A stretch of DNA of 34,927 nucleotides from Bacteroidota bacterium. GTDB taxonomy: Bacteria > Bacteroidota > Ignavibacteria > Palsa-1295. Position numbers and translations under genes: made by a program. The stretch lies in contig JAJPIQ010000062.1 of assembly GCA_021324685.1 (NCBI GenBank), positions 1 to 34,927 of the forward strand, written 5' to 3'. The notes below the pieces were generated by a model, which worked only from the letters and a program-made list of their open reading frames with translations, searched no databases and was not told where the DNA came from. This document shows, piece after piece, positions 10,765-16,557 of the stretch; the first letter of the stretch is position 1, and each line of letters starts with the position of its first letter.

Positions 10765-10803
10765 CTTTATTTCCAGAATCCAAAAATACCAGAATCCAAA
10801 GCG

Positions 10804-10876
10804 TGGACCCGAGGGGACTCGAACCCCTTACCTGTAGAATGCAAATCTACCGCTCTACCAGATGAGCTACGGGCCC
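10804..10876 (-). tRNA. tRNA-Ala (UGC)
   Basis: All four arms fold: acceptor GGGCCCG/CGGGTCC, D arm GCTC/GAGC, anticodon stem GTAGA/TCTAC with loop TTTGCAT (anticodon TGC), T arm AGGGG/CCCCT with TTCGAGT, discriminator A. The 3' CCA is not encoded. It lies 75 bases downstream of tRNA-Ile in the same direction. Confidence 0.96.
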
Positions 10877-10881
10877 CAGGT

Positions 10882-10941
10882 AGTGCTGAGTCATTAGTGC
10901 TAAGTTGAAAAACAGTTACTTGGCACTTAGGACTTAGCACT
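10882..10941. repeat. Compound inverted repeat between the two tRNA genes
   Basis: The left arm carries AGTGCTGAGT and AGTGCTAAGT (10882-10905); the right arm carries ACTTGGCACT and ACTTAGCACT (10918-10941). The inner left unit AGTGCTAAGT (10896-10905) and the outer right unit ACTTAGCACT (10932-10941) are perfect complements. Over 24 bases the arms pair at about 20 positions, around a 12-base centre. It fills almost the whole spacer, so the tRNA precursor RNA would form a long hairpin between the two tRNAs. It resembles a small mobile or REP-like intergenic repeat. Confidence 0.75.
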
Positions 10942-10951
10942 CTAAAATCCG

Positions 10952-11025
10952 TGGGCCTAAGTGGAGTTGAACCACTGACCTCCCGCTTATCAGGCGGACG
11001 CTCTAACCAACTGAGCTATAGGCCC
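10952..11025 (-). tRNA. tRNA-Ile (GAU)
   Basis: Acceptor GGGCCTA/TAGGCCC, D arm GCTC/GAGC, anticodon stem TCCGC/GCGGG with one wobble pair and loop CTGATAA (anticodon GAT), T arm AGTGG/CCACT with TTCAACT, discriminator A; CCA not encoded. With tRNA-Ala it forms the Ile-Ala pair that usually sits inside a 16S-23S spacer, but no rRNA sequence flanks it here. Confidence 0.96.
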
Positions 11026-13935: not shown

Positions 13936-13956
13936 GTAAGTTCGACCTAAAGCAGG

Positions 13957-13984
13957 AGCCCTTCCTTTTCAGGAAGGGCTTTTT
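13957..13984 (+). terminator. Rho-independent terminator of the outer-membrane protein gene
   Basis: AGCCCTTCCT-TTTC-AGGAAGGGCT followed by TTTT: a 10-bp perfect stem with a four-base loop, 21 bases after the stop codon. Confidence 0.95.
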
Positions 13985-14021
13985 GATTTTTGGTGTTCTT
14001 CTTGACTGAAATTTAAAATTT

Positions 14022-15635
14022 ACGGAAACCGACGTCCTTGTTCTTGGCTCCGGCTCGGCCGGATTGTTTTTCGCTCTTCGCGTTGCGAATGAAACGCGGC
14101 TGCGTGTGCTCGTCGTCACCAAAAAAGAACGTTCGGAATCGAACACGAACTACGCGCAGGGCGGCATCGCAAGTGTCATCAGTGGTTCTGATACGCTCGC
14201 GTCGCACGTGCGGGATACGCTTATTGCAGGCGCCGGCCTTTGCCATGAAGATGCGGTCCGCGTCTTGGTCAACGAGGGACCCGAGCGCATTCGCGACCTG
14301 GTCGCGATCGGCGCGCGCTTTACCCGGACAAAAGGCGGCGCGCTCGATCTGGGCCGTGAGGGGGGACACTCCGTGAACCGCATTGTGCACGCGCGCGATT
14401 TTACAGGAAGGGAACTCGAGCGAGCGCTGTTGGCCGCGGTCCATGAACATCCTCGGATTCGAATCCTCGAGAACCATTTTGCCGTCGAATTACTGACCGA
14501 TCACCAGCGAAAGAACAGTCGCAAAAAAAAGGATCGAACGCTTTCGTGCTATGGCGCCTATATTTTAGATGAAATAAGTGGGAAGGTAAAAATCTGCCGT
14601 GCTCGCCAGGCGGTCATGCTTGCGACCGGTGGGGTGGGGCAGGTCTATCTTCATACGACGAACCCCCTGATTGCGACCGGGGATGGCATTGCGATGGCCT
14701 ATCGCGCCGGAGCGAAGATCGGGAATATGGAATTTATTCAGTTCCACCCTACGACGCTCTATGCACCCGAAGCGAATTCGTTCCTGATCAGCGAGGCCGT
14801 GCGAGGCGCCGGCGGGATTCTGCTGAATCAGGCCGGAGATCGATTCATGAGCCGTTATGACTCCGAGCGGATGGAACTGGCTCCTCGCGATATTGTCGCT
14901 CGCGCGATCGATGCCGAACTGAAGCGCCGAGGCGAGAACTATGTGTTCCTCGCTGTATCGCATCTTCCGTCGCGTGCCATTAAGAGCGAATTTCCGAGTA
15001 TTTACGAACGCTGTAAAGAGTTTGGACTCGATATTACGAAGGAGCCGATTCCGGTCGTGCCGGCCGCGCACTATAGTTGTGGCGGAGTGGTGGCAAGCCT
15101 GGACGGAACGACGAATATCGACAGGCTCTATGTGGCCGGTGAAACCTCGATGACCGGGGTCCATGGTGCGAACCGGCTTGCCAGTAATTCACTGCTCGAA
15201 TCGCTCGTTTGGGCCGGCCGAGCGGCAGAGCATTTAAAAGAGCGGATAAAGACCGAACAAACGCCCAAACGTAAAGTTGAAATCGAGGAATGGGATGAAT
15301 CGGGGACCGAGAATTCCGAAGAGTGGATCTATATTTCTCATGACCTGAAAGAAGTGCAGGAGCTCATGTGGGATTATGCCGGCATCGTTCGGAGTAACTA
15401 CCGTCTCGAACGCGCCCTGCGACGACTGAAACTGATCCAAAAGGAGATCGAGGAATATTATCGCCGAACCAAGGTTACCGTTCCACTCCTCGAGTTGCGC
15501 AACATTGCAGAGGTAGCGCTCCTCATCGTTCGTTCTGCACTGCGCCGAAAAGAAAGCCGGGGACTCCAATTCACGACCGATTATCCCCAAACGGATGACC
15601 GGCATTGGCTTCACGATACGATCCTTTCACAATAA
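14022..15635 (+). CDS. nadB: L-aspartate oxidase, apparent ACG start
   Basis: Flavoprotein that oxidises L-aspartate to iminoaspartate, the first step of de novo NAD synthesis. Motifs: FAD-binding GSGSAG near the N-terminus, NYAQGGIASV, the active-site stretch GREGGHSVNRIVHARDFTG, FIQFHPTTLY, EAVRGAGGILLN, and the C-terminal AGETSMTGVHGANRLASNSL. A basic insertion (HQRKNSRKKKDR) follows the first FAD domain. The first canonical start, TTG 14064, would remove the GxGxxG motif. Between the in-frame stop at 14007-14009 and that motif there is no ATG, GTG or TTG. ACG 14022 would give MetGluThrAspValLeuVal, a normal NadB beginning, for 537 aa. So either ACG is used or a base is changed here. speB follows 22 bases later. 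No nadA or nadC in the window. Confidence 0.9.
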   Translation, partial: TETDVLVLGSGSAGLFFALRVANETRLRVLVVTKKERSESNTNYAQGGIASVISGSDTLASHVRDTLIAGAGLCHEDAVRVLVNEGPERIRDLVAIGARFTRTKGGALDLGREGGHSVNRIVHARDFTGRELERALLAAVHEHPRIRILENHFAVELLTDHQRKNSRKKKDRTLSCYGAYILDEISGKVKICRARQAVMLATGGVGQVYLHTTNPLIATGDGIAMAYRAGAKIGNMEFIQFHPTTLYAPEANSFLISEAVRGAGGILLNQAGDRFMSRYDSERMELAPRDIVARAIDAELKRRGENYVFLAVSHLPSRAIKSEFPSIYERCKEFGLDITKEPIPVVPAAHYSCGGVVASLDGTTNIDRLYVAGETSMTGVHGANRLASNSLLESLVWAGRAAEHLKERIKTEQTPKRKVEIEEWDESGTENSEEWIYISHDLKEVQELMWDYAGIVRSNYRLERALRRLKLIQKEIEEYYRRTKVTVPLLELRNIAEVALLIVRSALRRKESRGLQFTTDYPQTDDRHWLHDTILSQ

Positions 15636-15657: not shown

Positions 15658-16557
15658 ATGAAGGTACTACCGACGACGCAAAATTTTCTGGCGTTGCCTA
15701 AAGAGTCGAGCGGATATGATTCCAGCAAGGTGGTCATCCTTTCTGCACCGTACGAAAAGACGGTAAGCTATGGCGGCGGTACGGCGAAGGGACCCGAGGC
15801 CATTATCAAAGCCTCGCAGTACGTCGAATTTCTCGACGACGAGTTCTTTAAGGAATTATGCTTCGATGTCGGTATAGCGACGCTGCCGCCGCTCGCGTTC
15901 GGCAAACGGGCCGGAAAATCGATGCTCGATTATCTCCAGAAGGCGGTCCGAGAGCAAATTGAGAACAAAAAATTCGTCGTTACTCTGGGCGGCGAGCATA
16001 CGATCTCGACGGCACCCATAATGGCGCATTACCAGATGTACCCGAATGTCAGCGTGCTTCATTTCGATGCCCACTCCGACCTGCGCCTGGAATATTCCGG
16101 CACACCGTATAGTCACGCCTGCTTTATGGCACGGGTGGCCGACCTTGGGTTCCCAATGAACCGCGTCGTGCAGGTCGGAATTCGGGCGCAGGAAAAAGCG
16201 GAATATGAATATATTAAAAGGCTCGGCATTCAGACCTTCTACGCGACTGGAATTCGAAAAGGGATCTATGGCGATCATTGGCAGAGGTCCGTCGTACAGG
16301 CACTGCCGACCAATGAAGTCTATATTACGTTCGATGTCGATTATTTCGATCCCGCCATTATGCCCTCGACCGGCACACCGGAACCCGACGGATTCCAATG
16401 GAATGAAACGATGGAAGTCTTTCGGGAGCTTAAGAAAGCGGGAAAGAAGATCGTGGGCTTCGATGTCGTGGAGCTCGCGCCCGACCTGAAAGCGCGGCAC
16501 GCTACCTATCTTGTGGCGAAGTTGGTCTATCGGATGCTGAACTTCGCGCTTGCTTGA
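15658..16557 (+). CDS. speB: Agmatinase / arginase-family ureohydrolase
   Basis: Hydrolyses agmatine to putrescine and urea with a two-manganese centre. 299 aa. Metal ligands are all visible: LGGEH (His114), FDAHSD (Asp137, His139, Asp141) and TFDVDYFD (Asp226, Asp228); SYGGGTAKGP and SHACF are also typical. The family resemblance is to agmatinases, but formiminoglutamase or guanidinobutyrase activity cannot be excluded by sequence alone. ATG 15658 is chosen because earlier in-frame starts lie inside nadB. It follows nadB by 22 bases and ends two bases before the stop of the convergent pentapeptide gene, with no terminator between. An arginine decarboxylase partner is not in the window. Confidence 0.9.
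   Translation: MKVLPTTQNFLALPKESSGYDSSKVVILSAPYEKTVSYGGGTAKGPEAIIKASQYVEFLDDEFFKELCFDVGIATLPPLAFGKRAGKSMLDYLQKAVREQIENKKFVVTLGGEHTISTAPIMAHYQMYPNVSVLHFDAHSDLRLEYSGTPYSHACFMARVADLGFPMNRVVQVGIRAQEKAEYEYIKRLGIQTFYATGIRKGIYGDHWQRSVVQALPTNEVYITFDVDYFDPAIMPSTGTPEPDGFQWNETMEVFRELKKAGKKIVGFDVVELAPDLKARHATYLVAKLVYRMLNFALA

Follow-up and report, generated by a model that had tools for sequence, protein, structure and literature searches.

We analyzed a window of 34,927 nucleotides, positions 1 to 34,927 of contig JAJPIQ010000062.1 from a Bacteroidota genome, in which a nadB gene lies between a terminator-like hairpin and a gene of the agmatinase/arginase family (Table 1). The stop-to-stop frame of nadB spans 14010-15635, and an open reading frame with a usual start codon opens at TTG 14064. 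After the TGA at 14007-14009, the frame reads AAT, TTA, AAA, and TTT, then the ACG at 14022, and GAA, ACC, GAC, GTC, CTT, GTT, and CTT lead into the residues GSGSAG at 14046-14063, which we take to be the dinucleotide (FAD) binding motif. Direct reading of the frame from the TGA to the motif found zero ATG, GTG, or TTG codons, and among the nine codons that differ from ATG by one base, ACG alone is present. ACG is absent from the start codons of translation table 11. Read from the ACG, the protein would begin with Met followed by ETDVLVLGSGSAG. The preliminary description of this DNA had claimed that nadB has no canonical start before the FAD motif, and our reading of the interval from TGA 14007 to 14046 confirmed this.

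Table 1. Features at and around the nadB start in the 34,927-nucleotide window
Feature	Position	Strand	Basis or remark
Terminator-like hairpin after the upstream gene	13954..13983	+	Inverted arms 13957-13966 and 13971-13980; 38 bases before ACG
GGTGTTCTT, nine-base block	13992..14000	+	Identical in the three ACG species; distance to ACG varies
In-frame TGA, upstream bound of the nadB frame	14007..14009	+	Direct reading
ACG, inferred nadB start codon	14022..14024	+	Sole codon one base from ATG between TGA 14007 and the motif; ortholog alignment
nadB, L-aspartate oxidase (predicted)	14022..15635	+	537 codons plus stop; NF006567, TIGR00551, PDB, and Pfam matches
GSGSAG dinucleotide (FAD) binding motif	14046..14063	+	Direct reading; lost if translation begins at TTG 14064
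TTG, first canonical in-frame start of nadB	14064..14066	+	A start here removes the FAD motif
Agmatinase/arginase-family gene, ATG start, directly 3' of nadB	15658..16557	+	TIGR01230 above cutoff; PF00491

The ACG-read protein scored 678 bits against NF006567 (curated cutoff, 629) and 575 bits against TIGR00551 nadB (curated cutoff, 453), and both matches run from residue 2. The same description had proposed ACG 14022 as the beginning of nadB; this placement is well supported by the comparisons reported below. A version cut at TTG 14064 scored 23 and 21 bits lower, respectively, and still passed both cutoffs, and the GxGxxG FAD motif is kept only when translation starts upstream of 14046. Pfam placed FAD_binding_2 (PF00890, 316 bits) from residue 4 and Succ_DH_flav_C (PF02910, 68 bits) in the protein, and the closest solved structures, PDB 5kxj (E value, 2e-153) and 1chu (E value, 2e-152), are both L-aspartate oxidases. 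By family models, domains, and structures, the product is a full L-aspartate oxidase, with a predicted activity to match. Its likeness to the NadB proteins of 1chu and 5kxj is near full-length homology across both domains; the start codon is the unusual part here, and the protein itself looks ordinary. We rejected a second nadB copy in this genome, as the other genome match (G000:C46) is a 609-codon frame only 34% identical; its identity and frame size fit a succinate dehydrogenase/fumarate reductase flavoprotein.

We compared the start position across the genus (7 genomes) and the family (13 genomes) of the genome under study (G000). A nadB match was present in 13/13 family genomes, some of them partial or split. 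Within the genus, G000, G004, and G006 have ACG as their aligned start codon, G002 and G005 have GTG, and G001 and G003 have TTG. The ortholog comparison that the preliminary description had suggested thus produced two further species with ACG at the same aligned position. The G006 contig agrees at every base with the public record JAKAIL010000326, which is from a Bacteroidetes metagenome-assembled genome. In G004, a TAA lies 7 codons ahead of the ACG and none of the codons between them is a canonical start; two ATC codons also occur upstream of the ACG. In G006, an in-frame TTG lies 19 codons upstream of the ACG, within a terminator-like hairpin, and no canonical start occurs within 18 codons. 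At the nadB start position, GTG, TTG, or ACG is found in 12 of the 13 genomes of the family, and in 5 of those 12, all from other genera, the GTG stands one codon further upstream. None of the 13 has an ATG 7 to 17 codons before the motif; in G007, in-frame ATGs lie 27 and 30 codons before it. In G009, the position that is GTG in related genera is occupied by ACG, and an ATG lies 11 codons above this ACG and 20 before the motif. The G009 nadB (loci L113 and L278; G009:C90:1758-3372) was matched as two halves separated by 40 bases, against a gap of 10 residues in the query, which puts the halves in different frames.

Among 93 nadB loci outside the family with a recognized motif, an ATG occurred 7 to 17 codons before the motif in 80 and only GTG or TTG in 13, and none of the 93 lacked a canonical start in that interval. 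This set left out five outside loci without a recognized motif (L007, L011, L016, L024, and L076) and L092, a partial family gene. Compared over 300 bases from the motif, no two recognized-motif loci were identical or at least 97% alike, apart from L003 and L083, a single contig that is present twice. We also scanned 391 genomes of the class for an ACG followed, after two or three codons, by a flavin-type N terminus, a scan that covers those two fixed distances only. It returned 24 ACG sites, 20 of which have a canonical start no more than 7 codons upstream. The G009 site has one at 11 codons, and G000, G004, and G006 were the only sites with none within 18. In another family of the class (f13), nadB has only TTG or GTG at all four loci examined (L106/G036, L108/G027, L109/G045, and L110/G054).

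The use of ACG elsewhere in the lineage was assessed by comparing G000 (about 1.08 Mb) with G004 (1.16 Mb) at 166 ortholog pairs of at least 60% identity over at least 100 aligned residues. Three of the 166 pairs showed conserved residues ahead of the first canonical codon; once these had been inspected, nadB alone remained. One of the other two has an ATG after the conserved leader, and the other is a short frame with 3/5 matching residues in one genome only; neither was retained as an ACG-type start. A looser set of 225 pairs gave 22 flags, nadB among them; visual inspection led us to class the remaining 21 as antisense or off-frame open reading frames or noncoding leaders. Wide use of ACG in the lineage was therefore not supported, as nadB alone stands out among the 166 sampled pairs. 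The ortholog-pair test detects only starts without a nearby canonical codon, and further ACG cases could be missed because just 93 of the 166 pairs have an aligned canonical start no more than nine columns from where the alignment begins. Those 93 G000 genes start with ATG (75), GTG (11), or TTG (7), and 10 of them carry a Shine-Dalgarno-like four-base motif, a scarcity that agrees with what PMC3155529 gives for Bacteroidetes. By inspection, the first in-frame start of nadA is ATG in all five genus genomes in which its N terminus is present, and the nadC start reads ATG in 5/7. One genus member, G003, is listed as 100% complete and gave no nadA match, yet nadB (with its TTG start) and nadC are present.

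A single 13-base pattern found initiator-type tRNA sequences with the anticodon CAU in 7/7 genus genomes. ARAGORN called six of these sequences but not the one in G004, in which two bases are masked. We rejected the idea that an initiator tRNA has the anticodon CGU, since the pattern gave one CAU gene per ACG species, and CGT-loop matches in G001 and G003 were not tRNAs by ARAGORN. The infC genes of the seven genus members (L255 to L261) have 97 to 115 open codons before the usual IF3 N terminus, and the last part of this extension is conserved, with the form RMERFSR..P.RDPGVRM.

We consider it likely that ACG 14022 is a real, conserved near-cognate start of nadB, probably a weak one, in a gene that avoids ATG throughout the family. 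The ordinary initiator tRNA, with its CAU anticodon, would pair with ACG through a middle-base mismatch, and because of that mismatch initiation on nadB is expected to be weak. An AU-rich leader may bring the ribosome to the ACG; we propose the leader as the guide because most genes here are without Shine-Dalgarno sites. NadB opens the NAD pathway and makes hydrogen peroxide, and the weak start may have been kept because a low level of NadB is favored. The ACG looks like one extreme of the family-wide avoidance of ATG in nadB. The use of GTG, TTG, or ACG in nadB, set against ATG in nadA and mostly ATG in nadC, suggests that it is nadB itself that retains a weak start, and for the same reason it is plausible that the ACG start limits NAD synthesis; the weak start may serve a regulatory purpose.

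ACG could also be the start and be merely tolerated, as a mutation that drifted to fixation in a single ancestor and has no part in regulation. The three ACG species cluster in a nadB tree of 10 genomes with support of 84/87, below the threshold for strong support, and because of this clustering their ACG is probably of one origin, as drift would have it. At conserved fourfold residues, the codon is identical in all three species at 19 of 143, so that identity by chance is not rare and retention of the ACG is by itself weak evidence of selection. Start-codon selection in prokaryotes is also described as weak though significant in PMC5622118. Against drift, ATG is one transition away from ACG and yet is absent in all three species, and the family keeps to GTG, TTG, or ACG with no ATG in the 7-to-17-codon interval in any of its 13 genomes. 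On balance, we regard simple tolerance as rather unlikely.

To locate the boundary of coding, we compared the three ACG species codon by codon. In the first 25 codons from the ACG, each pair has 11 to 14 identical, 7 to 11 synonymous, and 3 or 4 nonsynonymous codons. In the 15 codon slots before the ACG, each pair has 0 or 1 identical, 0 synonymous, and 14 or 15 nonsynonymous codons, with indels in the gapped alignment. This comparison shows that the coding boundary falls at the ACG, with protein-level selection evident on the frame from there on. It bears on whether translation starts elsewhere, either at TTG 14064, with a truncated product, or farther upstream in a different frame, with a programmed frameshift. 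TTG 14064 is the first canonical in-frame codon and the shortened protein passes the nadB cutoffs, and G004 has a TTG of its own 3 codons before the motif, which would spare the motif and drop the conserved ETDV. However, a start at TTG 14064 removes the FAD motif, and G006 and G004 have CTT and CTA, respectively, at the aligned codon; conservation begins upstream of TTG 14064, at the ACG. The short upstream frames that begin with GTG end differently and, by eye, differ in frame relative to nadB in the three species. A start other than the ACG is thus very improbable.

The preliminary description had allowed that the base at 14023 might be wrong and the codon really ATG. A single C for T would be enough, and the draft assembly consists of 89 contigs. 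However, the same ACG recurs in G004 and G006. The three proteins are 84, 81, and 82% identical in pairwise comparisons, and over the whole of nadB, pS is 0.71 to 0.73 (near saturation) and pN is 0.11 to 0.13. A shared error is not credible, because the ACG is common to three species with near-saturated synonymous differences, and we give an assembly or sequencing error next to no weight. We saw no sign here of C-to-U editing of an ACG start and know of no bacterial precedent for it. Such editing of the message, turning ACG into AUG as it creates start codons in plant chloroplasts (PMC9845219), would leave the GTG and TTG of the sister species unexplained and can be set aside as a negligible prospect.

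Near-cognate starts are already known in bacteria, and the AUU start of Escherichia coli infC, which limits expression of IF3 and serves autocontrol through IF3, is the standard case, according to titles cited in PMC9845219. Both genes are real and use a near-cognate codon outside AUG, GUG, and UUG, but infC has a third-base mismatch and encodes a translation factor that controls itself, whereas nadB has a middle-base mismatch and is a metabolic gene. AUG is generally the favored start in prokaryotes (PMC5622118). PMC9845219 cites a preprint whose title speaks of bacterial genes preferring non-AUG starts; these share gene-specific avoidance of AUG with nadB, but GUG and UUG are usual bacterial starts. 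Some chloroplast genes share with nadB an ACG at the start position, but the chloroplast C can be edited to U in the RNA (PMC9845219). Among the titles and abstracts listed in the open-access literature, with subscription papers mostly outside its scope, we found none that reports a metabolic gene of bacteria with a conserved ACG start. Such a start would be a natural test case for the strictness of ribosomal start-codon choice, and it would also test whether selection keeps weak starts. A gene finder limited to ATG, GTG, and TTG cuts this nadB past its FAD motif, so that genomes of this kind may be scored wrongly for NAD synthesis.

We examined the leader upstream of the ACG in the three species. 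The block GGTGTTCTT is conserved while much of the remaining leader has diverged, and it is possibly a promoter or regulator element. If it is a promoter element, the leader of the nadB message would be very short or absent altogether. A sigma-70 scan at the nadB start of the G000, G004, and G006 loci found no promoter, and no clear promoter motif for the lineage emerged from the k-mers of 210 upstream regions. A hairpin similar to the one in Table 1 is present in G006 (L003), and none passed the scan in G004 (L084). The predicted RNA fold near the nadB start is slightly weaker than that of shuffled sequences (z scores, 1.38 and 1.26). A bolder extension of the weak-start reading would have the start codon itself control NAD synthesis: the conserved ACG, replaced by GTG or TTG in relatives, would make the amount of NadB depend on start-codon fidelity. 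The link might be an IF3 that carries a long N-terminal extension, or a message with almost no leader, and the supply of NAD would then follow the state of the translation machinery. We hold this to be improbable and offer it as speculation.

Elsewhere in the window, no rRNA match was found at the gathering threshold, and tRNA-Ala(TGC) lies beside tRNA-Ile(GAT) at 10803-11025 on the minus strand, a pair that in many bacteria sits within the spacer of the rRNA operon.
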